A DNA stretch of 64,000 bases from Skeletonema tropicum (Eukaryota > Bacillariophyta > Thalassiosirophyceae > Thalassiosirales > Thalassiosiraceae): contig CM074139.1 in NCBI GenBank assembly GCA_037178625.1, forward strand, positions 1,674,001 to 1,738,000, given 5' to 3'. Of the stretch, positions 36,858-58,107 are shown piece after piece. Numbering within the stretch: position 1 is the first letter of the stretch; every line of letters begins with the position of its first letter. The notes under the pieces are model-generated. The model had not been told where the DNA came from and did not search any database. It was given only the letters and a program-made list of their open reading frames with translations. A program made the position numbers and the translations under genes.

Positions 36858-38816
36858 ATGAGAGCCGCAGCAATATCAACGACGATAATATCCCTCCTCT
36901 CATCGCAGAGCTGCGATGCATTTCTCTCATCAACAGGCCAGCGGACTGTAATTTCAAGCAGCTCCGTAAATTTGCCAGCGACATCTGGAGCGGATAAATC
37001 AAGGAAGCACAACAAATCATGCAGAGTCAAAACTTCTTCTCTCTTCATGTCTGCACCGACTCAGAAGATACCTGACACGATTCATGAGTTAGCTGCTGAA
37101 GCTCAGACAACACCGCAGATGATGCGTGTGTTGTGGCAATTGGCTGCAGAAGCTTGCAAGAATATGCAAAAGGGGGTGAGTTACGATAATATTTAGATAA
37201 GTATATTTCGTTGTGTTGATTTTTGTGTACACAACTCATCTCATCAATACACACACTACTTTTCATTAATAAACCATCAAAACCAATTAATTCATCACGA
37301 CAATAATTCAATTAACATGCAGGACTCGGCCACCATCCTCTTGCCAGGCATGGAACAAAAACTATCCAACCCAAGATTCCTCAACAAACTAATGGGTCAC
37401 TTCGACGCCTGCAAGGACGTCTGTGACAACTTTGGCGTAACCACCATCCTCGTCCCACATGCCTCGGCACAACAAAAACAGCGTATCCTAGGTTTCACTG
37501 TCAAATCGTACCGTAATCCATTCGCTTCTGGATCCTATTCGGCATCCGCTGATGCATCCGATATGAAATTTGCACCCGATCCGTTTTGGGATGATGATGA
37601 GGAATGGGATTTTAGTGGTGTGGATGAAGTGGATGATTACAATGCCTTTGGGGATGTCGATTTGCCGGAAATTGAAGATTTGAGTCCCAAGGATGATGCC
37701 GTTGTGGTGGATATTAGTAAAAAGTGGGTGGAGAAGATGATGGCTGATTTGGCACTCTGTCCATTTACTCAAAGTGCCGAGAAGAGTGGTATTCCCATGG
37801 GACCGGTTCATTATCAGGTGGATAGGGTGATCACTATGGAAGATGCCTATGCTGCGTATTGGGCTGAGGTATGTCGCATTGAGGATGTGGGGCAGGATGA
37901 AATTAGTACGACGTTGCAGATTCTTCCGGAATTTTGCATGAATTATGTTGAGATATTCGAGCAGTGGGCTGATACGTTGACGGGAACTTTGGAGGGGTTG
38001 GAAGTGGAGGAATTGTTACAACTTATCTTCTTCCATCCTCATTGGACATTCCGTGATGGTGGAGACAGGTCTGGATCGGGACTTGCGGCAAATTATGCAC
38101 GTCGAAGTCCTTGGCCCATGGTGAACATTTTACGTACAAAGCAAGTCCGTACAGCGCAGAAGGGTATTCCGACAGGATTGGTTTACCAGCAGAATGAAAA
38201 GACGCTTGGTCGCATTGGGATGGAGAAATTGGAAAGGATGTTACGACTGCGCGATTGGAGTGATGTGGAGGGGATGAAGGTTGACAGGAAAGATATGGAG
38301 GCTCTCCGCGTCGCGACAGATTTGCAGGTGACAGGAGCTGTGAGGGATGAAGATACTTCATTTATGCATGATTCGACTCCTGCTGCGAATAAGGTGGATC
38401 GCTCCCAGATTGATGGGGGCAATATGGTAAATGTTATCTGTCAGGCGTTGGAGATGCGTCTGGGAAAAGATGCTGCAAGTAATGGTGAAGCCAAGGAACT
38501 TGATGGTTCGATGACAAGTGCTGCCATGATGGCATCCGATTTCCTGTTGGAGGAACTGAGACGTATTGAGACAGACTACCCAGGTGATGCACGAGCTCCA
38601 ATTTTGGATGACAGAGGTGATGATAATGGAAGGCCTCAATCCGCGATGGCCAAAGGAGGCTATGCCGCTTCTTACGGGTTTGATGCGACAGAGGAGGAAG
38701 ATTACAATCGACAGGCAGAAAGCGATGAAATGAATGCCCTGTGGGGTGGAGGTGGGATCCCTATGACTAATGATGATGAAAGTATCAGTTCCAAAAATTT
38801 AAATCGGGATTGGTAA
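36858..38816 (+). CDS. DUF1415-family protein, probably plastid-targeted
   Basis: Two exons (36858-37175 and 37323-38816, phase-0 GT-AG intron of 147 bp) encode 603 aa. The N-terminus (MRAAAISTTIISLLSSQSCDAFLSS) has a signal peptide followed by a 'DAF' junction with Phe at +1. That is the ASAFAP-type bipartite signal diatoms use for plastid import. A DUF1415 domain spans ~240-390: the family signature 'WVEKMMADLALCPF', then 'STTLQILPEF', 'LQLIFFHPHWTFRDG', 'YARRSPWPMVNILR' and a final 'NEKTLGRIG'. In bacteria DUF1415 proteins are ~180 aa with unknown function. The C-terminal ~210 residues are acidic and unrecognised. The 3' half of exon 2, with its 3' flank, is duplicated in inverted orientation at 57401-58105. 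Confidence 0.88.
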
Positions 38817-39385
38817 GAGGGCATGCAGTGCTTTTAATCAAATTATTAGATAGATAGACCATTATTATCGTACGTACGATAATCATTACATTTCATTAGC
38901 GTACACATAAATAAGTACCTTGGTTAAATAATACAAAGTTAATCGGATTAGATACTTATTCATGATACTCTAGACATCATGAGGTATGGCGGGAACACAT
39001 GCCTCCTTCCCCAGAAGTGGCTTACCCCAAACCAAACAGGTTTGTTGAATTTGAAGGAGCATCAGAAGCAAGTTGAAACTGAAGGAGAAACTTTTTTTCA
39101 ATGACCGAATCAACGATAAGTATGTAACAAATCGACATTGCCTGGTTTGAACACATAATGATACTCCTATCTCCCAGTAAGCTGGAGAGTAAGCTGGAGA
39201 CACTTACAAAAGAAAGGAGTGAGCCATGGTAGCAGTAACCCAATGCTTCACTTGGACGTAATGATGACCTGTGATCCTGGGTGGGCTGGTAGCTGGTAGG
39301 TAGGTACTTCTAGCAAAAGAGTGTAGGTAGGCAGCATGTAGCATGATGAAAAAATGTATCGTAGTCAGGAGAAGCAAAACGATAC

Positions 39386-39457
39386 CTCCGAGACGGGGAA
39401 TCGAACCCCGGTCTCCCGCGTGACAGGCGGGGATACTAGCCACTATACTATCTCGGA
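39386..39457 (-). tRNA. tRNA-Asp(GUC)
   Basis: 72 nt with a 7-bp acceptor stem (TCCGAGA / TCTCGGA), G discriminator, D-arm, anticodon arm 'CCCGCCTGTCACGCGGG' with anticodon GTC, and T-arm 'GTTCGATTC'. The intronless body with C-rich anticodon stem is typical of eukaryotic cytosolic tRNA-Asp. It lies between the convergent DUF1415 and FAD oxidase genes. An identical second copy is at 56760-56831 in the other duplication arm. Confidence 0.95.
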
Positions 39458-39641
39458 TTAGTTGGGAGTGCTCCACAATAAGAGATATATGAACCATTTC
39501 TACCTAGGTACCTACTTCTACTTCTATGATGTGTATATAAGTACATAGGTAATTTCATGCCAGCACGCACGCACGGGAACCACATGCCAGATGCCAAGAC
39601 AGTGTTGTAGAAGGGGTGGTGGGTGCGCTCCCAGCTTCAGC

Positions 39642-41698
39642 AACAGAGCGAGTCAAAATCTAAAAGAGGAGGATTTAGATCTAAATAGCTCTGACTACGA
39701 GAAAGAGGGTAAGAATCAGGGTAAGAATTTTCTTACCCTCAGGGTAAGAATTCTTACCCTGATTCTTACCCTGCAGGGTAAGAATTCTTACCCTGATTCT
39801 TACCCTACAAATATTTCCCCCCTTGCCTCATCGCCAACTCTTGCCTCTTGCCCATCCACCATGACGATGATACTACTTATCCCTCTGCCTTGTTGCTATT
39901 TCTGACCTCTGGGACATGAACACAGTCTATTACTCGACAACCTGACACTATGGTGACATTCGATGAGGTGATTTCCATTCAAACCGTCTAGAACTGTCGG
40001 CATGGGTCACCTACGCGGGCACTATGGTTACAGCGATTATCCAACGATGCAGTGGCACAACTGATGAGAATGGTGGGAATATTATAACAAAAGAGCGAGA
40101 TGATGGTTCTAATACAGCAATATAGTGGTTTTGATGGACATAGTGGCGTCTCGTCTCCGTGTGGTGCGGTTGAGGTGACAATCTGATCATGAGTGGCTTG
40201 TGTCAGTTAATAATCACGTTGACGTCGTGGGAGGCATTACCCCTTGAAGGGGGATGCTGATCTAGAGGCTATTGCATGCAACAATATAATTTTGAAGTGG
40301 ATATACTTTCAATGGACTGCCACTGCTGTTTTCTTCTGCTGGCACCCTTTCATCATCAATCTCAATACGTACTACGGCTTCAGTGGACACAAAAGCTTAC
40401 AATAAATCTGAGATATTTATCGGGTGACTTCCTACTCAGCTTTAGTAGCAGAGGCAACGTGAGTGTCGATAACTATGTCATCTCTTCGGAAGGATTCGGT
40501 AATTTCCATTGTTATCATCCTATTTGCGGCATTCTGTATTAGAGATGAAGCATCAACCAGGAACGAATCTGCTATGAAGTAAGAGATGAATAGGGTGACA
40601 AACAAACAACGAACAATACATGCAACCACCAGTAGACGGAATCATTTGGATCTAGGGTTGGCAAATGTTTCTTGAGAAGCACTGCACTGGAGGGTCCATG
40701 CGGCAACATTATCTAAGAAGGCTTGTCAGCTAGAGAAAAGATAGTCTATTTGACGCAACCGTGATGCATGTATGTGTCTTCCTGCTGACCCATGCAACAA
40801 TACACATTAAAATGAGAAATAACACACATAATATAAAGAGATTAATAATCCTTATATTCATAATAACATTATCTTAGACGCAACCTACACACAAGCACTT
40901 GCCTTGTCTTCTACAGAGATTACAGAAGTTGATTGTTAATTCAAGGCTGCAACACTGGAAAATAAACAGCACGACGGCTTGCTCTTGAGATATAATGTGG
41001 ACTCTAGTTCATATATTAATAGTTTAGGAGAGTAATTGCAATAAAATGTGTTGCTGTGTATATTACTACCATCCTAATGAGATGCTATGTCCGCACACGA
41101 ATCTGTTCACAAAACCCCCGCAAGACATCGCCTAAGTGGATCAAAATCAGATACCATGGCGTTATGAACACCCCTAGCAGCCATCTATATTAATATGGTA
41201 CTGAGAGTACTACGGGGGCCTTGTGGAACGATTATTGCGTTTCCTCGTCGACGTTATTTGACACCTGCAGCAAAATAGACCAAAAATCGATGCGTTAGAT
41301 ATAGCCGCCGATACGTCTGCAGGCTCTCAATTTCATGACTTCCCGAGTACATCAACGTTTTCTACGTCAAAAACTGATCTAGATCATAGCTTTACAATGC
41401 GTTGGAGTCCTAATTGATTGTGCTATGGCATAGCGGCCCACCATGATGGCTGTGATGCGCTGCTGTGATGGGTTGAAATGTTTTTGGAAAAGTTGGCGAT
41501 GAAATATTTTACCCTGACAGAGAGGGTAAGAATCAGGGTAAGAATCAGGGTAAGAATTCTTACCCTGATTCTTACCCTGCAGGGTAAGAATTCTTACCCT
41601 GATTCTTACACTGATTCTTACCCTGATTCTTACCCTTTCTCGTAATCATCGCCAATTAGATCTAAATCCTAATATTTTAGATTTTGACTCACTCTGTT
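39642..41698. mobile_element. 2.06-kb TIR element with clustered AGGGTAAGAATC repeats
   Basis: Ends are AACAGAG(C/T)GAGTCAAAATC, inverted, with further inverted blocks 'GGATTTAGATCTAA' and 'TTACGAGAAAG'. Next to each end (39708-39808 and 41512-41635) sits a palindromic cluster of about ten AGGGTAAGAAT units in both orientations. The flanks are TCAGC and CCAGC, an imperfect 5-bp (or perfect 4-bp CAGC) target duplication. The right arm shows the empty site at 54614-54618. There is no ORF over 100 codons, so it is non-autonomous. Superfamily unassigned. Confidence 0.85.
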
Positions 41699-41976
41699 CC
41701 AGCGCTCGCAAATAAGCAATAATTTCGGGCAGGTTTTGTTCATATCCTTTCTTCTTCTCACAGAGCGAGAGCAGCTCAGAGAGAGATAGGGTGATACTCC
41801 ATCATTGAAATTCGCATAATAATGTTTTCTTACTCTTAAGCAAACTTTTTATCACACGAAGAACAGCACTAAAACAAGCTCTGGATGCAGCTAGAGCTAG
41901 AGAAAGAAGGAAGTGCCTTTGATAGTTTCTGAAACAACTTGTGTCATGTCAAGAATACCGGTGTGCCCCAGCTATG

Positions 41977-42254
41977 CTACGGCAGCCTCTTAAACAAATA
42001 GGATGAGGAAAAACAAATGAAGCACAGTTGCGGAGATTGCAGCTGCGGCTGCTTTTGAAAGGACGCAACAGATGCACTAGACGGCTCATCAGATGGATTC
42101 GCTGTCATAGTTGTAGGAGGAACCATCTCGTCATCCTGAGAGTGAGATGCCTTGGCCAAATCAAGATTATTTCCGATGCAGTTGTGGCAGTTGAACATGA
42201 AATTGGGGTCAACAGCCATCTTGATTGCCTCAAGACGGTTGAGTAGTTCTGTTC
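41977..42254 (-). pseudogene. 3' end of FAD-linked oxidase gene, cut off by LTR element
   Basis: This is the last part of the final exon of the oxidase described at 48240-50176. It encodes a C-terminus beginning 'ELLNRLEAIKMAVDPNFMFN' and containing 'CHNCIGNN', a typical berberine-bridge-type oxidase ending (VDP...F.C..C). A Ser/Gln-rich tail follows to the stop at 41977. The 5,985-bp LTR element lies between this piece and the rest of the gene; GAACA (gene strand) is duplicated on either side. Confidence 0.85.
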
Positions 42255-42626
42255 TGACAGATGGTGACAGATGGTGTCAAACCCTGACCCCAGCTAAAGC
42301 CCTTGCTAGGAGCTAATTCATGTGTTACCACACTTGGTCGTTTGTTAACTTGCGTTTACTTTAGAATTCGAATTATGAGCTTTCCTTATCTTGGAAAACA
42401 ATCATCCAAGAAACATCCTTATCTTGGATACAATCGTCATTGTTGGAGTTTTCCCTCCAAAATCCCTCTCTCTGATATCTTTTGCTGCCTAAAACCTCTT
42501 CGGAAGTGCCGAGAACTTCTCTGCCCCTCATACGTGTCGTACCTACCCTCAAAGATACATATCTCAATGCCGTACCAGCAAGTACTAGAATCCATATCCA
42601 AGCCTTGTCCAAGCTCCCGTTCGTCA
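42255..42626 (-). repeat. 3' LTR of the retrotransposon
   Basis: 372 bp in TG...CA form. It carries a duplicated TGACAGATGG at its outer edge that the other LTR lacks. The element's ORF ends within it at 42373. Confidence 0.88.
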
Positions 42627-45600
42627 TCCCCCTATGATTCGACGTCCTTGCTATTACATCTCCAATAATCCATCGCGTTCCCTTTCCAAGATAGATCGCC
42701 TTGTAATCATATGGATAAAATTCCCTCCTAATGAATGTCACTCTCATACATTCAGATGTAGCTGTAGCAATCTCACGAATGCGGTAGGTCAGTATGGAGT
42801 GTCTCACGCTGGTCCCAAAACTGGGCTGTATCTTACTAGCCACGAGTGACTCAATATTGCTGGGCAAGATTGGCGTGTCTTGTTGCAGTAGTCCAAGAAT
42901 AACACATTCCGTCATTGTCACGTGTCCTACAATCAACTCTGAGCTTCCACTCTGGAGGTTATCATATCCGTCTGCAATCAATGATGTCTTGCTGCAATTG
43001 CGTGTTCTCAAACTAATCAGTTGCGATAGGCGATCAACTCTGTGTCTTGAGCCCATGGAACAGTTGCTTCCAGTTTCAGCTGACTCAGCGTATCCAATGT
43101 TTTCCGATTGGCACTGATATGACGCTCCGTTCTGCTGAGACATGAGTTGGGTCATTGCCTTTTCCAGATCGGTCCTGACAGAATGGATGAGTGCGATCAT
43201 TTCCTTCTCAAGAACAACGTTCTCCGTCTGCAATGCATCATCATAAAAGAAGTTTGTAAGCTGGTGATTTGGGCCGCTCATTCTACCAGGGATAAAGCCG
43301 CTATCCGCAATGTGTCTCGTCATCATAGCAACGCAGCAGGGATTGTGATCTCTCTCAAATTCATTGCCGTTGTACGTAACGATGTTCCTCAAGTATCTTC
43401 CCCCAGGTTCCCTGACAACAACGTTGCTGCGTGTATCTCCACGTGTGTATCCTACAGAGCTTGAGTGTATTGTCCCCCATAGTAACAGTCGTGTCGCGCT
43501 GTTGTACGTCTGCGTAGGATCATACTCATACCAAACACTGATTCTCCTCAAAGAAGCGGTTGTCACGTCCTTGGCATATCTTTCATTCAATCGCGGTCCA
43601 TTCGAGTTGTGAAAATCATCCCGCTCAGCAAGCTCCTGAACTCTCGCGCCGCCAATACCAATTAGCTTTGACTTTAATCGGCCAATCATCCAATCACTTT
43701 GGAGTTGTCCACCGTTTTCCACATTCAACGTCAACGCTCCCATACAAACCTCATTAAGACTATTGTTGTTGACGTATCGTAGTTCTTCGTTGTCGATGTC
43801 ACCATCACCACAAGGTAATTCAATCCAATGATTCCAATAATAATCCAGAGACGAACTTCTCAACGCATCCAACTTGAGTTTGTGGAGTGTAGCCTTCTTG
43901 TATCCGTCGAGTGCAATGTTGTAGAATGAATTTCTCTCTTCAGCAAATGTCTCCAAGTTGTTACATTTCAGATTCTTCGTATCCTGCCATTTGATCTCCC
44001 CATTGTCTCGATCAATACCTTCGTCTCGTTGATAGTTCCGAGGTACCTGATGTCCAAGAAGATCTCCAACTTTCGCCTTGAGCCCGCTTTGAGAATCCTC
44101 AATGATTTGAACTAACTTCGCAATGGATCCCAAGATAGATGACCCAAAATTCGCAAACCTGATGCAACCAACTGCTACATTCTCACGGATGTAATGGTAT
44201 GATAATACCAAATGCCTCTTGCGATTCTTGAAGTCAGGATTAACTCCACTTGACACTAAAGACTCATTGTCACCCAATAGTAGAATCGGGGTTCCATGCA
44301 AAGGTACTCCGAGGAACTGAAGGAGGGTCTTGTTAGCCCTGATTTGCCTGATAGCTGTTCCCGCTGCGTTGTTCTCGGATCTGTACGTAGCTGTTTCGAC
44401 AGTATTCTGCTTCTTCGAAAACCAATCAAAAGGAGTCTTATTGAGGAAGTGAAGTGCGCCTGTGACAGATTTTCCACTGCGAATATCATGCATTAGGTTG
44501 GCATCCACAAAACTAGTCATCAAGACAGGCTTCCCACAAGCTGGTGGAGGATTCTTGGAGTACTCCTCGCGAGTTCTGGCATAGGGCGTACTGGGCCAAT
44601 CCCTTTTGAGGAAATCGAAACCTGAGATAACAGGCATATCAGTCTTGTACCGAATGTCTCCATTCCTCATCTTGCAGAGATACCCATAGACTCTCTTGAT
44701 CCTATCGAGATGACCTTTCCTTGGTTGTGCACGGAAGCTGGACAACGTCATTACAGCGGTTCCCACAATATTTCTATCATTGTCGTTGACCATACGCTTT
44801 ATCATCATCTCGGTCGGCGTGAAATCTACTCCCCAAGAGTGCTTATCGTACGTGATATCTCCAACGATTTTCTTTCTCAATAACTTTTCCTTGGCCAATA
44901 CCTCCTCCAATAGTATCTTACTATCCCATAATCTAATAAACTTCAACGTTGAGTAGTCAGAATCGTTGCATCCCATCGAACCCATCCAAGGTACCGTAAT
45001 ATTACCAGATGCAGCTCCCCATCGTGAAAGTAGTTTGACAATCAGAGTCCCATCACAACCAGAAGTCTTGTCGTGCTGGCTTTCATGCATGATGTCCGCG
45101 CCAAATGAGTCAAACAGTCTCCGCATCATCTCTCCCCCATCATTACGGGCAACACAGTTGGAGTAATGTATGTTGATGCGAGGCATGACCTGCATATATG
45201 CGGCTCCAGCAGTGGGATCGACGCCCGTCACAAGTCGTCCAAGATCTTCAATAAACTCAATGAACGTCACACTGGTTCCAAAATTACGTGGCTGCAAAGA
45301 GTACTTTCCAAATCCAATCACTGCGGAGCAATAGCCCTTTCGAAATCCAAGCGCCGACGAGCAGTAATCCTGTCCAAATGCTGCAACCGCCAATCGAAAG
45401 ATGCTCCTGTCATCATTATCACTCTTGCGTATCACCACCTTGTCAACCGTTAATGATGACAACACGAGATCCTCTCCACATGCGTGCATAAAAGTAGGTG
45501 CCACCTCGATGTCTTGAATAGAGCAGTCATCGAACTCTGAGTGCCGTTCCACTTGCGAAGCAAGATAATCACCGTCTTCAACGGAAACAGGCGCACATGC

Positions 45601-47403
45601 GTCGCAACGATCAATCAAGGTCACCTCCTGACCAGTATCATCAACGTATCCAACAATATCGATGGCATTATCTCCAAGTTCCACCTCTTTTCGTCCTAGC
45701 TCCCCATCTTTCTTCCCAACTAAATCATCCGTCTCCAATCTTCCACTGACGTTGTTGCTATCAGATATGTAGCCAGTGATATTCCATCCGATCAATCTTC
45801 CCCCATCAGTAATCATCACTATGAAACATCCCCCATCAATATTACCAGCTCTCTTCAAATATTGCACATTTGCCGAAGAAATAAGTACATAAGAACTGAC
45901 AGCAGTCAAGTACACACACTCCCCAACCTCATGAACAGTCTTGTGCTCTAACACTTCATTTGTTGCAAAACCAACATCATTGTGTTTATCGTTGTCATCA
46001 CCAAAGGGAAGGCGGAGAGGCTGACGAAGATCAATTGCTGTTGGAAGGAAGTTGACGGCGCTGTACCACTTGCAAGCAGGCTCATAATTAAATGCACAAT
46101 GCGGTCGTTGCCAACGATGGATGCAAATATCTCCGTCAGTAGCCGTCCCCCAATAGGTGTCCTCTATTAGAACATAAGATGTACCAAGATCAGGATACAT
46201 CGCCTCAAGTCTGATCGTAGTGGGATGGAAGCAGCTGGTAGATAGTAAGGGATAGCCCTTTAAATCTTGACACAGATAGGGATAACCTCCCAGATTCTTG
46301 CGAACCCAACATTGCATTTGTCCGCAACGACAGTTGAAGATGCATCGAGCCTCTTCATGAACCAAACCAGCCTCGGCCAACCCAGTCGAAATCAAGTCTG
46401 TGGATGGATTGCCTCTGTCGAAGAGCTTCGACTGCTCATCAAAGAAATGCTTCGCAGCCATCAGGCTCGCTGGAGAAGCTACGGCTACAGATGGAATCCC
46501 TCTATCAAATGATTGCGCTTCAAATGTTTGCTTTGCTATTGTCAGGCGAGGCACATCAGTGGTGTTAGAAGCGTAGGAAAACAACAAAGAGTTCATGTTG
46601 TCGTGGTTGGAACGTGCATCAATAAAGGCGAAGTTGCGGTCTGTTGTAGTTGTTGAGAAGGTGGACTTTTCTGCCGTAGGAAATCGGTTGCTGCAGTCCG
46701 ATGCAAGATTAGGTGTTGAAATATTGTCCGTGTAGTCGTCAGGAGAAGATGGTTTACATAATTCCACCCCTGGAACGTCATCATCATCATCCAGATCATC
46801 ATCCAAAGAGTAGGAATGATATTGCCCAAAATATCCCGTATGTTGCTGAATTTGAATAAGCCTACGTTGGTGAAGTTTGGCCTTGGCCTCGTCGTAGGTA
46901 ACGAAAGGGACAGCTGCGTCGAACCACTGATCGAAGTCATCGCTGGTTTTCTGCATGAAGTCGTAAACACCAACCTTGGAGATGGGTCCATGCAACATCT
47001 GGAGCTGATTCATGTAGGATAGGACTTCGCTCAACCTCTCCCTAAGTTCATCCGAAATACTTGCTCCTGTTTTGTCTTTGATCAAATTCACCATGTTGGG
47101 ATCGCTGATCAACTGCTTGAACTGCCCCAAGGTTGTGATGCCTTTGGAATCCAAGTGCTCATGCACGATAGTATTGTTGTTCAACCACTGGTGCAGGATG
47201 TGTCTTAGCGTTGGATCCATTTGAATCATCTTCCCACTCCGGTTCTTCACGCTGTTTACCTCGTTTAAATCATCAATAGTTTCTAGAAATTCTCTGAACG
47301 TATTCATGCTACGATCAGCGATGACGTCTCCTACAAACCCATCGTTGTCTAGCTCACCTCGGAGGATGTACTTGAGTATCTCTTCAAAAGTGGCCTTCTT
47401 CAT
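42373..47403 (-). CDS. 1,676-aa chimeric ORF of the LTR element
   Basis: The reading starts at an ATG (47403) and has no break. Near the N-terminus two similar ~45-residue helical repeats occur (around 'DDLNEVNSVKNRSGK' and 'DPNMVNLIKDKTGAS'), possibly Gag-like. A long middle part is unrecognised. At roughly 60% of the length comes a copia-type RT thumb/connection ('VMTLSSFRAQPRKGHLDRIK') and an RNase H with its acidic residues in place ('FVDANLMHDIRSGKSVTGAL', 'TVETATYRSE', 'GDNESLV'). Near the C-terminus a second, degenerate copy of the RNase H end appears ('NIESLVASKIQPSF..RH..L.Y.IRE'), with the catalytic Asp replaced. Canonical protease, integrase HHCC/DDE and YxDD were looked for and not seen. 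The element may depend on another element for mobility. Confidence 0.75.
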   Translation of the reverse strand: MKKATFEEILKYILRGELDNDGFVGDVIADRSMNTFREFLETIDDLNEVNSVKNRSGKMIQMDPTLRHILHQWLNNNTIVHEHLDSKGITTLGQFKQLISDPNMVNLIKDKTGASISDELRERLSEVLSYMNQLQMLHGPISKVGVYDFMQKTSDDFDQWFDAAVPFVTYDEAKAKLHQRRLIQIQQHTGYFGQYHSYSLDDDLDDDDDVPGVELCKPSSPDDYTDNISTPNLASDCSNRFPTAEKSTFSTTTTDRNFAFIDARSNHDNMNSLLFSYASNTTDVPRLTIAKQTFEAQSFDRGIPSVAVASPASLMAAKHFFDEQSKLFDRGNPSTDLISTGLAEAGLVHEEARCIFNCRCGQMQCWVRKNLGGYPYLCQDLKGYPLLSTSCFHPTTIRLEAMYPDLGTSYVLIEDTYWGTATDGDICIHRWQRPHCAFNYEPACKWYSAVNFLPTAIDLRQPLRLPFGDDNDKHNDVGFATNEVLEHKTVHEVGECVYLTAVSSYVLISSANVQYLKRAGNIDGGCFIVMITDGGRLIGWNITGYISDSNNVSGRLETDDLVGKKDGELGRKEVELGDNAIDIVGYVDDTGQEVTLIDRCDACAPVSVEDGDYLASQVERHSEFDDCSIQDIEVAPTFMHACGEDLVLSSLTVDKVVIRKSDNDDRSIFRLAVAAFGQDYCSSALGFRKGYCSAVIGFGKYSLQPRNFGTSVTFIEFIEDLGRLVTGVDPTAGAAYMQVMPRINIHYSNCVARNDGGEMMRRLFDSFGADIMHESQHDKTSGCDGTLIVKLLSRWGAASGNITVPWMGSMGCNDSDYSTLKFIRLWDSKILLEEVLAKEKLLRKKIVGDITYDKHSWGVDFTPTEMMIKRMVNDNDRNIVGTAVMTLSSFRAQPRKGHLDRIKRVYGYLCKMRNGDIRYKTDMPVISGFDFLKRDWPSTPYARTREEYSKNPPPACGKPVLMTSFVDANLMHDIRSGKSVTGALHFLNKTPFDWFSKKQNTVETATYRSENNAAGTAIRQIRANKTLLQFLGVPLHGTPILLLGDNESLVSSGVNPDFKNRKRHLVLSYHYIRENVAVGCIRFANFGSSILGSIAKLVQIIEDSQSGLKAKVGDLLGHQVPRNYQRDEGIDRDNGEIKWQDTKNLKCNNLETFAEERNSFYNIALDGYKKATLHKLKLDALRSSSLDYYWNHWIELPCGDGDIDNEELRYVNNNSLNEVCMGALTLNVENGGQLQSDWMIGRLKSKLIGIGGARVQELAERDDFHNSNGPRLNERYAKDVTTASLRRISVWYEYDPTQTYNSATRLLLWGTIHSSSVGYTRGDTRSNVVVREPGGRYLRNIVTYNGNEFERDHNPCCVAMMTRHIADSGFIPGRMSGPNHQLTNFFYDDALQTENVVLEKEMIALIHSVRTDLEKAMTQLMSQQNGASYQCQSENIGYAESAETGSNCSMGSRHRVDRLSQLISLRTRNCSKTSLIADGYDNLQSGSSELIVGHVTMTECVILGLLQQDTPILPSNIESLVASKIQPSFGTSVRHSILTYRIREIATATSECMRVTFIRREFYPYDYKAIYLGKGTRWIIGDVIARTSNHRGMTNGSLDKAWIWILVLAGTALRYVSLRVGTTRMRGREVLGTSEEVLGSKRYQREGFWRENSNNDDCIQDKDVSWMIVFQDKESS

Positions 47404-47877
47404 GATTCAAAACTGCGCCGAAATCAAACTGTAATAAATTTTTGATATGCCCAATAAGTATTTATCAACCGTTCAATACACTATTAGGAAATTACAGGGT
47501 TGCACTTGCTGATGTGCTTAGGGCAACACGGAGTCACCCACAGTTCACGCTGCAGATTCTGCCTCTCCTCGCTAATGAAGAGTACAGGAATCTTTATTCC
47601 TTATTGCCAACACGGAGTCAGGTTGGGGAATTTCCGAACAAATCTCACCGAAGCTCTTCGGTAGTAATTGAGATAGTCTTGAGCTGATTTACACACTTCA
47701 CCGCTTTGCTACGGTCATGTACTCACTTTGTCCAATAGATCGCTTACAGGGTGCAACGCGGAGTCACACACACGGGGTCCTCAAATCGATGGGAGTAGGG
47801 ATGTCGTAGGTGCGAAGGCAGCAGTCGGCTCACTCGATTCCGTAATGGAATAAAAGTAGAATCCGAGACTGTTAATC

Positions 47878-48239
47878 TGACAGATGGTGTCAAACCCTGA
47901 CCCCAGCTAAAGCCCTTGCTAGGAGCTAATTCATGTGTTACCACACTTGGTCGTTTGTTAACTTGCGTTTACTTTAGAATTCGAATTATGAGCTTTCCTT
48001 ATCTTGGAAAACAATCATCCAAGAAACATCCTTATCTTGGATACAATCGTCATTGTTGGAGTTTTCCCTCCAAAATCCCTCTCTCTGATATCTTTTGCTG
48101 CCTAAAACCTCTTCGGAAGTGCCGAGAACTTCTCTGCCCCTCATACGTGTCGTACCTACCCTCAAAGATACATATCTCAATGCCGTACCAGCAAGTACTA
48201 GAATCCATATCCAAGCCTTGTCCAAGCTCCCGTTCGTCA
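47878..48239 (-). repeat. 5' LTR of the retrotransposon
   Basis: 362 bp, identical to 42255-42626 as far as compared, minus one 10-bp terminal unit. The minus-strand sequence just inside it (GATTAACAGTCTCGG) resembles the stretch at the equivalent place in the truncated element near 54276 (GTTAACAGTCCCGG), and may be a shared primer-binding region. Confidence 0.88.
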
Positions 48240-50176
48240 TGTTCCGTAGGTTGCTTCCTGAGAAGAGATGCACTTTTTCTCGCGCTCCTGAAATGTCCAT
48301 TCTCGAGGACAAGCTTTCGTCCAGTCTTCCTTGAGGGGCCCGGTGAGATAAGGCCCAACATGGTTAGCCCTGAAAGCAGGAGGGAACTTGGTCTTGTTGG
48401 AAATGTCATACATCTTTGGGAAAACATTGCCCCAAAAGTTGGTTTCTCCAGTTTCATTGTGAGGGAAAAAGAAATATGCCATTGCAGCAGCATCGCGCTG
48501 AGACTGGGAAAGTGAATTGGCTTGATCGGAAAAGCTGGCAGTAGTAACTCCATGAGAATAGTATGGGAAATTCCCTTTCTCGAGGAAAAGTTTGATGTTT
48601 TCTTCGCTTTCATTGATCCAAGATTGTGGGACCAACACGAAACCAATTGTAGAATCAACCATCAATGGAGCAGGAGGATTATCTGGAACTTTGCCAGGGA
48701 ATCTGCTTTTTTCTCCCATCAAGATAGTCATAGTCTCTGCAAAGCTCTTGGCATCAGGGGCCCTGACAAGACATGATGAAGATTCTAGGGGCAAGTTGTT
48801 CAGCTCTAGGAACCTTGCCCAAGCTCCCACGACGTCTTCTTTGCCATAACAACATATAATAGTCCTCTCCCGACTCCCAGGAGCTCCACAAGCGAGGCTG
48901 CTCTCCTTAGTCACATTCAAAACTGATGGCGTCGTGAGGTACTGTGCCACAAACTCATTAAATTTTGGGAGAAGGGGAGAGCACTCCTCCACTCTAAATC
49001 CGAATTGTTTGGAAGGAAGATACTCGTGAAGCTGCAGAGACGCAGATGTCACCACACCCCAAGTTCCTCCTCCACCACCTCTGACACAAACCAGAGGTCA
49101 CCAAAATTAATATCAAAGTCTTCGGGGCAGGTCTCCCAGATCCATTTCTCCTCGTCTTCTTCATCAGGGTTGCTTCGGCACACTCCTGAAACAACTGTCG
49201 TGCGAGGGACAATGAATCCATCTGCAGTTGCGTCCTCCCATTCTGTGGGGCCAAATTTGACATGATAACCATTGGGCAGCACCATCTCCACTTGCAGTAC
49301 CTGATCTACGCCCATACCTGATCGATCAAAATGGATGAAGGAGAGAAGAGAGACAGTATTAGGATGAATCAATATGAATAAGGAATGTACGTGTATATGA
49401 TTTGCACGATACATCAAAGGAACAGGAAGTAGGAAGCAGAATGAAACACGTAGCCACACGTACCATACAATTGGCCTCCGTTTGTACCTGCGTGGCCACC
49501 TTGCCAATGCCACCCCACTGCAGTATTAAGAAAATGGTTAAGAAGAAGAAGATCGGCATCTATCAATCTATCAAGATCAAAACTGCAGATACAGCTTACT
49601 CGGAGAAACGGTACCAGCTGCAGCACCTACTAAGTGATACTTGTACTCATCCAATGCTTGATTAGCGGCTACCACCGCGCGGTATACCTTGTCTATTTTA
49701 TTAAGAAAGAATTACATTTGAGGTCAGTGCATAAGCAAAAGGAAGAGCAATAGAGGATTAGGCTGATGAGAACTCTTTTCAGGCATTGTCACATGGCAAA
49801 GTAATTAACTAATCCAAAACTTACCAAAATTCTTGCCTCCGCCAACACGAATTAGACTGGACTTGCCCCTCGCCAATGCCAAAAGGCATGCCTGATTACT
49901 AAAATCATCAGCTACAGCAGTACTCAAGAGGACTGCGTCACAGTCCATGATTCCGTCCAGAGCATAATGAGTGTATCGATTCATATTCAAGAGGAGAGTA
50001 TTCTTCTTGCTTGATGGATGAACCTGAACATAGCCAGAGGGTGATGTTGAGCATAGAGAGGCAATAGTTTCAGTCAGGATGTGTTTTGTGAGTAGTTTGT
50101 TAGTAAAATATTTTTTGTGCGATTTTCCGAGCAATAGCTTGATAGTAGGTAAGTAGGTGCATCCTCCAGCCTCCAC
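48240..50176 (-). pseudogene. FAD-linked (PCMH-type) oxidase, 5' portion
   Basis: Exons on the minus strand: 50176?-49825, 49692-49600, 49517-49464 and 49317-48240 (then 42254-41977 beyond the LTR element). All joins are GT-AG. The reading includes 'SSLIRVGGGKNF|DKVYRAVV', 'GTVSP|MGWHWQGGHAGTNGGQLY', 'MGVDQVLQVEMVLPNG' and 'CRSNPDEEDEEKW', typical of berberine-bridge-like FAD oxidases that oxidise alcohols, sugars or alkaloid-like substrates. Three defects are visible. There is a 1-nt loss near 49081-49090, where the Gly-rich 'RGGGGGTWGVVTS' switches frame. The LTR insertion lies at 48240. No ATG or signal peptide is found upstream of 50176, because the duplicated right arm starts at 50238. 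It is therefore broken, unless the frameshift is an assembly error and transcripts skip the element. Confidence 0.85.
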
Positions 50177-50237
50177 TTTGCAGTGTACCTATTACTAAGT
50201 ATGGTAAAGTATCAACTACTCCATGAGATAAGTATGC

Positions 50238-51772
50238 CATTTCAGGAGCACATGCAAGAAAAAGTGCATCTCTTCTCAGGAAGCAACCTAAGGAACAGAA
50301 CTACTCAACCGTCTTGAGGCAATCAAGATGGCTGTTGACCCCAATTTCATGTTCAACTGCCACAACTGCATCGGAAATAATCTTGATTTGGCCAAGGCAT
50401 CTCCAGGACACATAAAAGAATGGGCTGAACCACAAAATTGAAAAAGAGGTGCCCTCTTTTTTATCTAGATAAATTTCCTTACTTTATGCAACCGTTTAGG
50501 GGGGCGCCCTTTCCACACGCACTTCCACCATTGTCATCAAAATTCTGCACTCAAACCTCCTCAAAACACTTCGATGACCTCTTCACCATGGCGCTGTGCT
50601 AGTAAAAATTATGTCAATGGCTATGCCCATTTTATTTCTCGATCCGACGCAGTGGCCTCCTATCATGCTATTGGACTATGAATCCGCCATTTCGAGAAAT
50701 TAAGGGGCATTCAGTTATTGTGCATTTGATGATGGCAACAGCACATCATCGGATGATCCTCCGACCGATGCATCAAACCATTGCCGACAAGGACGAGCGC
50801 TGCCGTCGACCCAACATCAACATCAGTTCAGGAAATTAATTAAGAGCCCTCGCCATCGTTGGTAATGGCATGTTAAATTATCATCATCACTGTTCATCAT
50901 TTTGTTGGAGCCGATCCACTGAACAAACACATTTATTTTTGTGGAGCCGATCCACGGACACAACCATTTCCGACAAAGACAAAGAACATGACAGAACTGA
51001 TATCAACAATAGCATCTGATGATGAATGAGAGCTGCTGTCGTCGTTGGTGGGATATTTTTGTATTTATTCAGGGTATTATATGACTGCTAACAACACCAT
51101 TAATATCGGATGGCATACGAACAACAGCCGGTGGTTTGACCTACTACTCCATTAATAACTGCATTTGGCAAATAATGAAGAAAGTTGATAATAATAATCA
51201 ATCATTATAACATTAGAAGGAGTCTGCAATGCAACATGGCAATTGAACAACTAATTTTATTAAATATGAGTACATATGGCATGATGTTGCCCGCAGGTGC
51301 AGATTTTATGTCTACGTCGATTGGAGCCGTATACCATCACAGCAACTTCGATTCTACCGCCGCCGCTTACATAATCGGAATCTACGCAAAAAATTGGGTT
51401 AGACAGGGTGTTGTTTATCATGGTTTTGGGTGTGTTGAGCCGATAGTACCATGGTTTGCCGTCAGAATCATCATGATGGGGATGTTTTTTGGGGTCTTAG
51501 ATTTATTTGCTACGCACGTGGGGTAGTAGAATTGTGATGACGATCGTGGTGGTAGAGGCCTTTTTTTGTGGTTCAGCCCATTCTTTTATGTGCCCTGGGC
51601 ATCTCACTCTCAGGATGACGAGATGGTTCCTCCTACAACTATGACAGCGAATCCATCTGATGAGCCGTCTAGTGCATCTGTTGCGTCCTTTCAAAAGCAG
51701 CCGCAGCTGCAATCTCCGCAACTGTGCTTCATTTGTTTTTCCTCATCCTATTTGTTTAAGAGGCTGCCGTAG
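50238..51772 (+). pseudogene. inverted copy of the FAD oxidase 3' end
   Basis: Starts at 'CCATTTCAGGAGC' and follows the gene's last exon to its stop, interrupted by the hAT-type element (50404-51597). Relative to the original, a substitution turns a Tyr codon into TAA at about 50289-50291. Here the LTR insertion is absent: 'GGAACAGAACTACTC' is uninterrupted, giving the pre-insertion site. Confidence 0.88.
50404..51597. mobile_element. hAT-type non-autonomous element, 8-bp duplication
   Basis: Terminal repeats CAGG(A/G)CACATAAAAGAAT continue to 34 bp. GGCATCTC is duplicated exactly on both sides (50396-50403 and 51598-51605). The uninterrupted GGCATCTC is present once in the left arm (42144-42151, complement). 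CAGG(G) ends with an 8-bp duplication fit the hAT superfamily. The element is 1,194 bp, with only a 113-codon frame of no recognised family (51185-51526). Confidence 0.88.
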
Positions 51773-51929
51773 CATAGCTGGGGCACACCGGTATTCTTGA
51801 CATGACACAAGTTGTTTCAGAAACTATCAAAGGCACTTCCTTCTTTCTCTAGCTCTAGCTGCATCCAGAGCTTGTTTTAGTGCTGTTCTTCGTGTGATAA
51901 AAAGTTTGCTTAAGAGTAAGAAAACATTA

Positions 51930-53940
51930 TTATGCATCATTACCGATGACTAATGAAGTGGCATCATCCGCAAAGCGTAACTCAACGTAGCAATCAACTG
52001 ATGGAACCCAAGTTGAAGATTTCCAGAATCCAGTTCCGTGAGAATTATTAGCCAATGGTACGAGATCGTTTGAAGCAGACGGTGCGCAAGACATGCAAGA
52101 ATCATCTCCCCTGAGCAAGATGGCATGATTAGGCCGATGAGTTGGTGCCAATTCCTCTCCATACTGAAAAGAAACGATGTCTTGTGTTTTCTTGTAGAGA
52201 TCGCGGTAGATGTGCACTTGAAGACTCATTGTAATGTCCCAAATAGACGGATGCCGGCAGCAATCGGAAGTTGTAGCAATACATAACCAATTATAGCATC
52301 GATCGACCGCAGAATTATTATCGATGGAGACCTCAGGAAGCACACCCAGCATGTGAGAACGGAAATCATGTGGAGAGACAGCACTCACATCAAAACCTAA
52401 TCGAACCGTAGATGTAAAATCATAGTCAGCAATAGAATATCCTCGACGATGGAAGTAGGAGTTGTTCTCGGCAAATACGCGCTCCCTAATCTCTTTACAG
52501 AACATAGCTTGTGGTGCGTTGACAGAGTGATACTTCATAACGTAGCAAACAATATTGCCCCATCCGTGATAAGTCATGTAGTCATCGCTTGATGCTCCGA
52601 CAATTGCCACCTAAGGAGCGACATTGAACACCCGTACAGTAGTCAGCGATAGATGCTGTGAAGGCAGTAGGAGTAATCGCAGTCAAGATCTTGTGGCATA
52701 CACGGAGGGCAGGGTGTGTCGACTTGTGGCAAGTAACACCATAAACAAGCATGAGCGTCACATTAGAAGATATCTCATTTGTCCATAATGAAGTAACCGT
52801 CGAAGTAGCGAAGACATCTCCCCACACAGTGACAAGATTAATAAGATGATGATCAAGTCGCTGGGTCAAAAAGCGGATGAGACAGTGATGCACGTAGATG
52901 ACTCTAATAAAAGAGAACAGTATCACTCCCCGATCTTGAGATACATGGGTATTGACATGCAATGGCTTAGCTGCATGTAATGACTCAGCTGGATGTGCAG
53001 GGAAAGAGTAATTCTCCCCATTAATAAACCACGTATTGGTATATGAAATCTTGTGCGTGGAAAATTTGCTTGTGGGCCAAACAGGGATCCCCTCAAGATG
53101 AATCATTGCATGCAGCAATAAAGCCTGACAAAACTTCTCTGTCTTCACATATCCATATGCGCCGGAATGATCATGTTCAAGGAAGGTTTGACGATACATC
53201 GCAGAAAGAGCGAGTGAGTAGTACTTGTGAGTGGTGTTGTGCACAAGTCCATTATCGCGAATAGCCATCACATCATCAGTGATTGCTTCACAGCCCCTCA
53301 TCCCAAACAAGACAGGTAGATCGTTAACCACTCCCCATACACGAAGCAAGAATTTGTCGTGTAGTTGATGCGATCTCTGCGTCGATGGAATAAGACAGTG
53401 ATATTCATCCAACTGCGGTGAAGACATTTCCCAAAATTCTCCTCTGTTATCCGTCATATTCACATGTGAGGTAGGGTGATGTACCCCAAGAATGGACATG
53501 GCATGGCTATCCCAACTCTTCCCATGAAGTGTGTGTTTGTAACTATTCACGCCAACTCCATCGATACCAAAGAAGCCATCAGCCAAAATGTCCTCAGTTT
53601 GTAGATAATTTTTGTTGTTGTTGTTGTTGCTGTCTGATTTCAGCAGCTCTAATTTATCCGCATCATTATTGGGTGTCATCCCATCTCTATTCTTCAATGC
53701 GTTGACCTTATTCAAATCCGTCTCCATCATCTTCACAATGGTAGTCCAACTAGCAATTCCATCAACCACCGCCACTATATTGGGGTAATCGAAGAACAGG
53801 TTGTTTTTCTGACAACAATTTATTTGAGCGACCTTCGCCTTCTGAGTTTCAAGGCTCTGGATAAGAAATGGTTTGTCTGCAGGATGGATATTTAAACCCA
53901 ACGAAAGGAAAGACAACGATGGTACGATAATACGTAACAT
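51930..53940 (-). CDS. truncated element ORF, unknown, with +1 frame change
   Basis: The first frame runs from an ATG at 53940 to 52582; a second frame continues from about 52610 to the arm junction, where its stop is provided by flanking DNA. A +1 change near 52615 (TTAGGTGGCA) would join them. Residues 'METDLNKVNALKNRDG' match the helical repeat motif at the N-terminus of the intact LTR element's ORF (DDLNEVNSVKNRSG). The rest, His/Tyr-rich, is not recognised. The frame change could be a programmed shift, a mutation or an error. Confidence 0.4.
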
Positions 53941-54509
53941 TGTGCAGTCGTATTCGGCCTACAGGGCTAAACGCCGGGGTTGTGTTCCACGCCACAGCTG
54001 AGGGAAAACGCTCTTATGGGAGACCTATCTCTAGACTCCAGGATTTCGTGCCCAACTCTTATCTTAATTAGGTTCACAACTACGATCACCTTCACTAAGA
54101 TCTATCTTCAAACTTCATGTATCCTTGTATTCCGACGCGTGGTGTTCGCTCCGTTTCCGGTGTCCTCATGAATCTGACGTGTGCAGTTAACATGCAATTA
54201 CCAGCAACCCAAGTCCCCCTTGGACCAGTGACTGCAGCGCTCAGCTTCGAGAAAAAAAACTCGAATAGCCGGGACTGTTAACCCAACAAAATGGATTGGA
54301 GCAAAGCTCCGGGTCACTTACGTTGTTTGCTTGCAAAGCGAGGTCAGTAGAATAACTACTAGGTTGAGATGTACAATCTGTTTCAATATCTAATTTATCC
54401 ACAACATCGTCCAGATGTGTGATGAATATGTACCTATTTCCCCAAAGGTACTCGTATCTATCGTACTAATAGAGTCCGTATCTACCTGAACTCGTACCCA
54501 GTTTGTCAG
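51937..54509 (-). mobile_element. truncated LTR-type element
   Basis: This sequence interrupts the right arm between positions equivalent to 41800 and 41814 of the left arm, where about 10 bp of target are also lost. In element orientation it begins TGACAAACTGGG and probably has a 5' LTR of about 233 bp (54276-54508). A GTTAACAGTCCCGG stretch follows, then an open reading region cut off at 51937. No 3' LTR exists, so the element lost its end by deletion. Its relation to the intact LTR element rests on the shared post-LTR motif and one shared N-terminal protein motif. Confidence 0.65.
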
Positions 54510-54673
54510 ATGGAGTATCACCCTATCTCTCTATCTCTGAGCTCGCTCTCGCTCTGTGAGAAGAAGAAAGGATATGAACAAAACCTGCCCGAAATTATTG
54601 CTTATTTGCGAGCGCTGAAGCTGGGAGCGCACCCACCACCCCTTCTACAACACTCGTCTTGGCATCTGGCATG

Positions 54674-56630
54674 AGACCTGAGAATCGCTAGCTTTGGCCA
54701 CTAACAAAGTCTGTCCCAAAATTTTTTCACTTTGCCGGAGAATCTCCATTTTTCAAAAAATCACTGAATAACGACCATGATGGCCACATCTCCCCCTATG
54801 CCCCCTCCGCCGCCGATGGTCCGATCAACCCATATCGCCACCTGTAGCCTCATTTAGTCCGTGTCTACCGATGTCAACCGCGGAATAAACTATCTCGTGC
54901 GTCTATCCTCTTAGTTAGCGCCTTGACATATCTTGTGTCCGTTGGTGGAAATAACGATCTCCCCCGCTACACGACAACATCTTCATGGGCTCTGTGATCC
55001 TCTACAATGATATCAATCAACAAAATGTACGGGAAACCGATAGGATGCGAGTAGGCAGCGTGATTGTCGGCCATGACCACCGATATGAGCCATCAATTAT
55101 TATTACAAATACACGGCGTGATTATTCAAAATCGGCACAATTCACGTGGTGAGAGAGGAGAAATAATAATTACAACAGTCTACAGCAGTGCAGAGGGAAG
55201 TCCGAGGTTGATTGGTGATCACAGGTGATTTGTTCTGATATATTTAGGAGTAAATACGGCGTAGGTCAGTTTTTGAATGCGTCAGCTTCGTCGCTGCATA
55301 TGATTTTATAGCCTCCCAACACAATTGAAATCATCACTGTGGGGTGAGCTTGAGAGGTAACACATGGGAGCAACCAATGATAATGATGCAACAACTCTTG
55401 ATTGTTTAATGGCGCAGTGCTGGTCTGGGAAAGCTCGTTCATCGTACGAATAAGTGATACATTTGTGCTACTTGTGGCAGAATTAGTTAGAGGAAAAGAG
55501 GGAGATAGCAACCAGAAGTATTGACAGTGAAGAAGGGTATTCTTTGATGATTAACAACCTTGCAAGCACTATGTGACAAAGTGCAAAGGCGACGATTGAA
55601 TAGGTGGGTAGATTGATACTATCGACGTCATGGCAATCAGGGGACAAGTTTAAGCAGCAAAACGCCCAAAGAATACGGCAGAGAATAAACTAGGTTTTTG
55701 TTTAATTAAGAACACTTTACATGTAAGGGTTATTGGCATTACGAGGATCGCAGGTAGAGAATGCTCGTTCGATCGCAGGTAGAGAATGTAAGAGAACGAG
55801 CCGATGTCTTCTCTGTCTTTGGTGAGTAGGTGCACTTTTCGATAGTGGTATCATTTCCATTTGGAGCAATGAGCCAATCTTTTCCGTCGACAACTACAAG
55901 ACGAGGCATGCCAAGATTGGAGTTGAAGGATATGTATCAGGAAATAAATGGGGAGTCGAATGTAGCTGTTCCATCAGAATCTCTACAAGATAGTGCATTC
56001 TTCTCCTCCATTTCCGACTTCTGCTCTGCTAACATTTCTTTCCATTGATCTGGAGTGCGATCCTGTGCCTCCTGTGCCTCCTTTTCCTCCATCCCCAGTC
56101 TGCTTGCCACCTCTTCAACATTTCGTTTGTGCCGATGTTTTGTGATCTCCCATCATACGTGAATTGTGCCGATGTTAAATTATCACGCCGTGTATTTGTA
56201 ATAATAATTGATGGCTCATATCGGTGACCACGAGCTATAACCACGCCACCCACTCGCATCCTATCGTTGAACCGTCAGTGCTATTGATTTATATTATTGT
56301 AGAGGAGCACAGAGCCAATAAAGATGTTGTCGTGCAGCGGTGGAGATCGTTATTTCCACCAACGGACACAAGATATGTCAAGGCGCTTACTAAGTGCGTA
56401 GACACACGAGATAATTTATTCCGCGGTTGCCATCGGTAGACACGGACTAAATGAGGCTACAGGTGGCGATATGGGGTGGTAGGACCATCGGCGGCGGAGG
56501 GAGCATATCAGGGAGATGTGGCCATCATGGTCGTTATTTTGTGACTTCTTGAAAAATGAGGCTGGTTTGGAGATTCTCCGGCAAAGTGAAAAAATTTTGG
56601 GACAAAATTGGCGGCTCGATTCTCAGGTCT
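54674..56630. mobile_element. 1.96-kb element with ~480-bp TIRs, CATG duplication
   Basis: Both ends read AGACCTGAGAATCG, and the inverted match extends about 475-480 bp inward (54674-55149 and 56156-56630) at roughly 90% identity. CATG flanks both sides; the left arm has a single CATG at 39583-39586. The central ~1 kb holds only short frames (81 codons at 55266-55511 minus; 72 codons at 55830-56048 plus). Very long TIRs with a 4-bp palindromic target do not let me choose a superfamily. Confidence 0.88.
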
Positions 56631-56759
56631 CATGTGGTTCCCGTGCGTGCGTGCTGGCATGAAATTACCTATGTACTTATATACACATCATAGAAGTAGA
56701 AGTAGGTACCTAGGTAGAAATGGTTCATATATCTCTTATTGTGGAGCACTCCCAACTAA

Positions 56760-56831
56760 TCCGAGATAGTATAGTGGCTAGTATCCCCGCCTGTCACGCG
56801 GGAGACCGGGGTTCGATTCCCCGTCTCGGAG
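56760..56831 (+). tRNA. tRNA-Asp(GUC), duplicate copy
   Basis: Identical to 39386-39457 in the opposite orientation, with the same flanks for several hundred bases. The tRNA body is intact, so this copy should be functional if the flanking 5' context is enough for RNA polymerase III (internal A and B boxes are present). Confidence 0.95.
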
Positions 56832-57400
56832 GTATCGTTTTGCTTCTCCTGACTACGATACATTTTTTCATCATGCTACATGCTGCCTACCTACACTCTT
56901 TTGCTAGAAGTACCTACCTACCAGCTACCAGCCCACCCAGGATCACAGGTCATCATTACGTCCAAGTGAAGCATTGGGTTACTGCTACCATGGCTCACTC
57001 CTTTCTTTTGTAAGTGTCTCCAGCTTACTCTCCAGCTTACTGGGAGATAGGAGTATCATTATGTGTTCAAACCAGGCAATGTCGATTTGTTACATACTTA
57101 TCGTTGATTCGGTCATTGAAAAAAAGTTTCTCCTTCAGTTTCAACTTGCTTCTGATGCTCCTTCAAATTCAACAAACCTGTTTGGTTTGGGGTAAGCCAC
57201 TTCTGGGGAAGGAGGCATGTGTTCCCGCCATACCTCATGATGTCTAGAGTATCATGAATAAGTATCTAATCCGATTAACTTTGTATTATTTAACCAAGGT
57301 ACTTATTTATGTGTACGCTAATGAAATGTAATGATTATCGTACGTACGATAATAATGGTCTATCTATCTAATAATTTGATTAAAAGCACTGCATGCCCTC

Positions 57401-58105
57401 TTACCAATCCCGATTTAAATTTTTGGAACTGATACTTTCATCATCATTAGTCATAGGGATCCCACCTCCACCCCACAGGGCATTCATTTCATCGCTTTCT
57501 GCCTGTCGATTGTAATCTTCCTCCTCTGTCGCATCAAACCCGTAAGAAGCGGCATAGCCTCCTTTGGCCATCGCGGATTGAGGCCTTCCATTATCATCAC
57601 CTCTGTCATCCAAAATTGGAGCTCGTGCATCACCTGGGTAGTCTGTCTCAATACGTCTCAGTTCCTCCAACAGGAAATCGGATGCCATCATGGCAGCACT
57701 TGTCATCGAACCATCAAGTTCCTTGGCTTCACCATTACTTGCAGCATCTTTTCCCAGACGCATCTCCAACGCCTGACAGATAACATTTACCATATTGCCC
57801 CCATCAATCTGGGAGCGATCCACCTTATTCGCAGCAGGAGTCGAATCATGCATAAATGAAGTATCTTCATCCCTCACAGAGCTCCTGTCACCTGCAAATC
57901 TGTCGCGACGCGGAGAGCCTCCATATCTTTCCTGTCAACCTTCATCCCCTCCACATCACTCCAATCGCGCAGTCGTAACATCCTTTCCAATTTCTCCATC
58001 CCAATGCGACCAAGCGTCTTTTCATTCTGCTGGTAAACCAATCCTGTCGGAATACCCTTCTGCGCTGTACGGACTTGCTTTGTACGTAAAATGTTCACCA
58101 TGGGC
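57401..58105 (-). pseudogene. truncated DUF1415 gene copy
   Basis: Encodes the last ~230 residues of the intact protein at 36858-38816. Between 'LQVTGA' and 'VRDEDTSF' it has two extra bases (CT near 57880), which put the parts in different frames. It lacks the promoter, exon 1 and the DUF1415 core. Its 158-codon C-terminal section is otherwise identical to the parent. Confidence 0.9.
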
Positions 58106-58107
58106 CA

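Follow-up and report, generated by a model that had tools for sequence, protein, structure and literature searches.

The window analysed here is a 64,000-nucleotide stretch of the diatom Skeletonema tropicum (C13:1674001-1738000 of a 78.4-Mb assembly with 125 contigs; C2, C5, C6, C12, C16, C18, C20 and similar handles denote other contigs). It contains an inverted duplication whose two arms carry the 3' end of a gene that we call G1, a tRNA-Asp gene, and the 3' end of a second gene, gene B. Comparison of the window with itself revealed an inverse match of 1,478 columns between 38111-39586 and 58108-56631, together with shorter matches in which the order was kept. ARAGORN and Rfam (RF00005) identified a tRNA-Asp(GTC) gene in each arm, at 39386..39457 on the minus strand in the left arm and at 56760..56831 on the plus strand in the right arm.

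Gene G1 (36858..38816, plus strand) encodes a DUF1415 protein and is complete at the left-arm end. The frame at 37197-38816 matched Pfam PF07209 (E=1.5e-33), and an alignment with a JGI-sourced protein, a relative with 95% identity (475 of 502 residues), reached the last residue; the start codon, the first exon, and a plastid-type presequence were read by eye. Among the 120 matches listed of 334, the nearest with a species name were Thalassiosira and Cyclotella proteins, which shared 61-71% identity with G1; others, including MMETSP proteins, shared 92-95%. The copy of G1 in the right arm covers the last 0.7 kb of the coding sequence; it is cut off and contains a 2-bp insertion that causes a frameshift.

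Five inserts, numbered 1 to 5 from left to right, interrupt the arms. Without them, the left arm (38111-48295) and the right arm (50238-58108) differed by two substitutions and five small indels over approximately 2.13 kb, which bears out the first-pass annotation of two inverse arms of approximately 2.1 kb with very high identity; its coordinates also hold to within a few bases. In our block alignment, the outer block (38111-39586 against the reverse complement of 56632-58108) showed no substitutions and one 2-bp indel, and a match of 1,476 bp without a substitution rules out chance. The inner islands between the inserts contained two substitutions and four small indels in 651 bp. These comprised a single 1-bp indel in 39587-39641, a 1-bp and a 4-bp indel in 41700-41803, and two substitutions and one 4-bp indel in 48245-48295; islands 41816-42151 (336 bp) and 42152-42254 (103 bp) were identical between the arms. 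These counts exclude approximately 10 bp at 41804-41815, adjoining insert 4, which differ between the arms, and set aside gaps of 1-3 bp at the block ends, which were produced by the chosen block borders and were absent from the BLAST alignment.

The left arm, as aligned, consists of the outer block with a further 55 bp (38111..39641), the 3' part of gene B (41700..42254, minus strand), which was also delimited by comparison with a paralogue, and an innermost piece (48240..48295, minus strand) whose first 5 bp are the second copy of a target-site duplication (TSD). The right arm consists of an inner block with the 3' part of gene B (50238..50403, plus strand), two further blocks (51598..51935 and 54509..54672, both plus strand), and an outer block (56632..58108, minus strand) that contains the tRNA-Asp gene, a short segment designated a, and the frameshifted 3' fragment of G1.

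The spacer between the arms (48296..50237, minus strand) is single-copy within the window and is composed of 1.73 kb of gene B and approximately 0.2 kb of other sequence. The body of gene B extends to approximately 50028 and is followed by a repeat of approximately 103 bp (50029-50131) and 106 bp of other sequence. The repeat is dispersed, with further matches in the genome, and lies where gene B is truncated. Up to 50028, the spacer is 94% identical to C6:3536876-3538685, and further paralogues of gene B are located on C5, C12, and C16. Close homology to the C6 paralogue ends at approximately 50028, adjoining the dispersed repeat, and the 5' part of gene B has been lost. Where the first-pass annotation had proposed a duplication of two convergent gene ends and a tRNA-Asp gene, the tRNA-Asp gene is present in both arms and the second gene proved to be 5'-truncated. 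The product of gene B resembles a berberine-bridge-type FAD oxidase as judged by eye, with weak evidence: the BBE match in the C6 copy (E=0.0036) is under the Pfam cut-off and is accompanied by a similarly weak CPW_WPC match, and a search with 278 aa of the C6 copy gave no match.

Gene B lies on the minus strand and crosses from the spacer into the left arm; the C6 paralogue shows the same order, uninterrupted by the inserts. The intact G1 in the left arm, and a gene B that continues from the spacer into that arm colinearly with the C6 paralogue, identify the left arm as the source of which the right arm is a truncated copy. The same colinearity across the left arm and spacer led us to reject an inversion with staggered breaks. 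In comparison with the C6 paralogue (and two C5 paralogues where alignable), the right arm has three private changes, namely one G-to-T substitution and two insertions of 4 bp. Private to the left arm are one T-to-C substitution, relative to the C6 and C5 paralogues, and a 1-bp deletion for which C6 alone gave the polarity; the 1-bp indel at approximately 39600 lies outside what the paralogues could polarise.

At its outer border, the right arm breaks off within G1 and is joined at a 3-bp microhomology (CAA) to a further copy of segment a. Segment a lies at 39026..39140 (plus strand) in the left arm and at 57077-57191 in the right arm, as detected by self-comparison and BLAST; the copy at the border, designated a' (58106..58222, minus strand), is older, measures 117 bp, and is 96% identical to 57077-57191. 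In the right flank (58223..59389, plus strand), 58372-58579, 58857-59300, and 59353-59389 match a tRNA-Asp/Leu unit on C18 in the same order with 78-81% identity, and the rest is unmatched. Contig C18 carries five tRNA-Asp genes, each adjoining a tRNA-Leu gene, in units that also bear right-flank-like sequence; the five units are found within C18:752001-792000 in mixed orientation, together with nested inverse copies. The unit that we compared closely contains tRNA-Asp (98.8% over 84 bp), an a-like sequence (68%, E=4e-5), and right-flank-like pieces (79% and 78%) in this order, and the right flank is therefore probably an old tRNA-Asp unit. The sequence relationships thus suggest that an inverted pair of tRNA and a segments probably pre-dated the present duplication.

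The inserts are different mobile elements, and none is common to both arms, as the first-pass annotation had stated. Its assignment of a terminal inverted repeat (TIR) element and a long terminal repeat (LTR) element to the left arm also holds. Insert 1 (39641..41699), the TIR element, is flanked by a CAG duplication (39638-39640 and 41700-41702). Among the matches listed, eight other copies match positions 1-2057 of the 2,058-base query with 95-98% identity, and all seven sibling insertions inspected showed a CWG duplication. Both ends of the element (39716-39806 and 41521-41636) contain tandem palindromic repeats around GGGTAAGAATTCTTACCC. Pieces of this element also occur, together with sequence like right flank 58916-59300, in an array at C2:4594001-4620000 with a spacing of mostly 3,354 bp.

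Insert 2 (42255..48239, minus strand) is a copia-derived LTR element with the TSD TGTTC (42250-42254 and 48240-48244) and TG...CA ends, and it interrupts the coding sequence of gene B near the start of, and inside, the weak BBE match. Its LTRs are identical (362 of 362 bp, plus an extra 10 bp at 42255-42264), which fits a recent insertion, and LTR relatives reached 100% over the 240-bp part searched, among the matches listed. A clear 5-bp duplication was seen at three of the seven LTR siblings inspected; these were seven of the eight LTR copies, and the eighth pair, on C14, lies outside the count. An open frame on the minus strand (42373-47406) spans 1,677 codons, and two other copies with 98-99% identity have open frames of 1,681 codons, in the best 28 of 228 candidates. 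No reverse transcriptase (PF07727) or integrase was detected in the frame by Pfam at E values up to 1. A 301-aa piece of the frame (900-1200) showed 73% identity over 62% of its length to its best match, which bears PF07727. The insert thus looks like a copia derivative in which a long open frame persists although no polymerase is detectable. It resembles the diatom copia elements named CoDi in an excerpt of PMC8147415 in its TG...CA ends, 5-bp TSD, and copia-like 301-aa piece; unlike them, its frame has no reverse transcriptase or integrase domain at that threshold.

The right arm holds a hAT-type, a truncated LTR-type, and a long-TIR element, again as first annotated. Insert 3 (50404..51597) has inverted ends CAGGRCACATAAAAGAATGGG and the 8-bp TSD GGCATCTC; 8-bp TSDs were present at all three siblings inspected, and the nearest sibling, in the best 40 of 269 candidates, is 92% identical. 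There is no open frame of at least 150 aa inside 50404-51597 and so no hAT transposase, which makes insert 3 at best a non-autonomous hAT member. Insert 4 (51936..54508, minus strand) is a 3'-truncated LTR element that has kept one LTR and approximately 2.3 kb of its interior; comparison with the C6 paralogue indicates that approximately 10 bp of host sequence is also gone at the site. Over the part present, it is 99% identical to C3:4516504-4519070 and 98% identical to C18:1845953-1848537, each of which has a second LTR match approximately 3 kb away. Insert 5 (54673..56631) has inverted ends of approximately 480 bp with 85% identity, AT on both sides, and a sibling at C13:1972579-1974543 (99%). 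All four insertion sites that could be compared with the C6 paralogue of gene B were empty there; the site of insert 5 is outside the homology.

The inverted duplication is present in the assembly and appears to be real, recent, and of a known kind, with arms that are not equivalent. The locus is likely a true, young inverted segmental duplication that was generated by template switching and was then hit by five insertions. A 2.1-kb segment (the last 0.7 kb of the G1 coding sequence, segment a, tRNA-Asp, and the 3' end of gene B) would have been copied in reverse when replication or break repair switched template twice. The first switch would have led from the spacer end at 50237 to the inverse strand at 48295, with 2.1 kb then copied, and the second out of G1 at 38111 to a'. 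The copy would thus have come to lie at a distance of 1.94 kb, flanked by the truncated 5' end of gene B on one side and the older tRNA-Asp remnant a' on the other. Of five unrelated elements, two would then have entered the source arm and three the copy, and one would have lost its 3' part; gene conversion between the arms may also have acted. The anatomy, the polarity, the unshared insertions, and the empty sites in the outside paralogue for four of the five inserts can be read directly from the assembly. Our inferences beyond these are that template switching was the mechanism, that the events took place in this order, and that the template lay on the same chromosome. The earlier statement that all five insertions post-date the duplication follows if the template was indeed the same chromosome; if the copy was templated on an allele without the two left-arm inserts, the insertions need not all be younger.

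Two substitutions in 2,127 bp give a K of 0.094% (95% interval, 0.011-0.34%). At the Phaeodactylum mutation rate of 4.77e-10, as given in an extract of PMC6604790, the duplication would be about 1 million generations old (0.12-3.6 million), an estimate that is void if conversion acts or the rate differs. Several points weigh against our reading. The locus is known from the assembly alone, and the outer border is the one junction that could be assessed for microhomology. Four of the seven LTR siblings and the sole long-TIR sibling inspected lack a visible 5-bp or AT duplication, respectively, at the borders as set. With so little divergence, five insertions are hard to reconcile with a constant insertion rate. 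The arms also differ by more indels (five) than substitutions (two), which is unusual; the extract of PMC6604790 gives an indel to substitution ratio of approximately 1:30 in Phaeodactylum. We considered transposon footprints, slippage, and assembly error for this excess of small indels, and none was shown.

The first-pass annotation had left open whether the arms are a recent duplication or two haplotypes joined in one contig, and our results support the former. Diatoms are diploid, and the contig could be an artefact in which two haplotypes were joined. According to part of PMC8147415, LTR insertions in Phaeodactylum are often found on one haplotype only. Near-identical duplications elsewhere in the assembly, as possible haplotype artefacts, also count against a real duplication. 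However, a haplotype origin would require two false joins, and the right arm stops inside G1 at a microhomology. In addition, the two flanks are not reverse complements of each other in the self-comparison, and searches found no further near-identical copy of the outer arm, the inner arm with the spacer, the right flank, or the left flank (the gene B paralogue is 94% identical), with block 41700-42254 by itself compared against selected loci rather than the whole genome. The unlike flanks, together with the lack of additional near-identical copies in these searches, make a simple haplotype fold-back unlikely, and the loop, which consists of gene B and other sequence, also disfavours it. The private changes in both arms do not discriminate between the two explanations. 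Overall, we regard a haplotype join as improbable. An older duplication, in which gene conversion between the arms preserved the identity of the uninterrupted outer 1.48-kb block and the short islands escaped it and diverged, is possible, if doubtful, and would have allowed the insertions a longer time to accumulate. Consistent with this, six of the seven difference events lie in the 651 bp of islands (31% of the arm) and one lies in the 1,476-bp outer block (P=0.004 for at least six of seven if events are placed by length, in a test picked after the data were seen), and both substitutions fall in the last 51 bp, which is separated off by insert 2. However, the islands of 336 and 103 bp are identical, the islands contain few substitutions (two in 651 bp), the events number only seven, and indels in short repeats may reflect slippage or assembly error. 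The arms of primate Y palindromes are kept alike by gene conversion; our locus is similar in its long identical stretch and in having differences beside interruptions, but it is far smaller, and conversion is only suggested here.

The load of inserts also requires comment. Five inserts in approximately 4.25 kb is dense: in three other inverse pairs, the longest gap inside the match is 11, 1, and 50 bp, respectively. The remark in the first-pass annotation that this density is exceptional stands in part; the three pairs, two of which overlap, were selected as uninterrupted matches, a choice biased towards stretches free of inserts. Chance combined with relaxed selection has close to an even probability as the cause: insertions would be tolerated, and hence seen, in a gene B that had already lost its 5' part and in a right arm made of pseudogene material. 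This is compatible with duplication by template switching and explains the insert load. The missing 5' part of gene B and the frameshifted right copy of G1 agree with it, as do new copia insertions in cultured Phaeodactylum; against it, the right arm's outer block is under no more constraint, yet it is free of inserts. Long-read work, as partly available in PMC8147415, describes this copia insertion in culture as ongoing and often confined to one haplotype, and recent one-copy insertions are therefore to be expected in diatoms. An insertion hotspot upstream of the tRNA gene, with targeting like that of Ty1, is very improbable, although the five inserts lie 130, 184, 288, 636, and 738 host bp upstream of tRNA-Asp and none lies downstream (P of about 0.007, post hoc, if positions are uniform over the arm). 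We found no tRNA in 42 flanks of 1.2-1.3 kb (52,006 bases) around 21 other copies of the five families, and tRNA-directed insertion is therefore not supported. These copies (eight LTR, seven TIR, three hAT-like, one long-TIR, and two truncated-LTR) were taken non-randomly from the upper rows of match lists that contained still more copies. To our knowledge, no targeting is shared by LTR and cut-and-paste elements.

Comparable inverse pairs that bear tRNA genes occur at two other loci in this genome and support our reading. A tRNA-bearing inverse match between C13:942401-946900 and C13:964801-969300 spans 4,463 columns with 99.37% identity and reaches the edges of the stretches compared, giving arms of at least 4.46 kb; it was noticed from symmetric tRNA positions in the best 63 of 2,517 candidate tRNA matches. 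At C18:756-786 kb, nested inverse copies of 4,008 columns (99.85%) and 6,964 columns (98.26%) overlap in one partner. Drawing on our focal pair, the older a/a' remnant, and these two loci, we suggest, as an idea that we consider unlikely, that tRNA-bearing units are recurrent seeds of inverted duplication and that conversion homogenises the arms until transposons break pairing and freeze the palindromes. If so, transposons would act as a switch that leaves the islands free to diverge. Several young inverted duplications of this genome are linked to units that carry tRNA genes, and arm identity may understate the age of a duplication if conversion acts.

Further repeats were also observed. Two more tRNA pairs in opposite orientation, on C2 and C5, were among the same best 63 matches, and an inverse pair 0.94 Mb apart on C20 (817 kb and 1757 kb) is 98.1% identical over 3,479 columns. 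Two pairs of loci on C5, 167-168 kb apart with 99.7% and 100% identity, point to either a large tandem duplication or haplotypes duplicated in the assembly. Within the window, 5602-6538 and 7151-8088 form a direct repeat of approximately 940 bp (97%) with 0.6 kb between the copies.

This locus provides a sequence-level case of a small inverted duplication forming and decaying in an alga, polarised by an outside paralogue and a related unit. In the related ODIRA model, as outlined in an extract of PMC10766186, inverted copies are likewise seeded at inverted repeats and later rearranged; unlike in that model, our locus shows no triplication, nor any demonstrated short inverted repeat at the inner junction. 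The two inverse copies separated by an unduplicated spacer correspond to the DUP-NML-INV/DUP arrangement. According to the available part of PMC6902434, such rearrangements at human PLP1 consist of a duplicate, an unduplicated spacer, and an inverted duplicate with short microhomology at a junction, as at our outer border, and are attributed to template switching, with inverted repeats involved in some cases. In contrast to those human cases, the duplication described here measures only 2.1 kb, lies in an alga, and was later filled by mobile elements.

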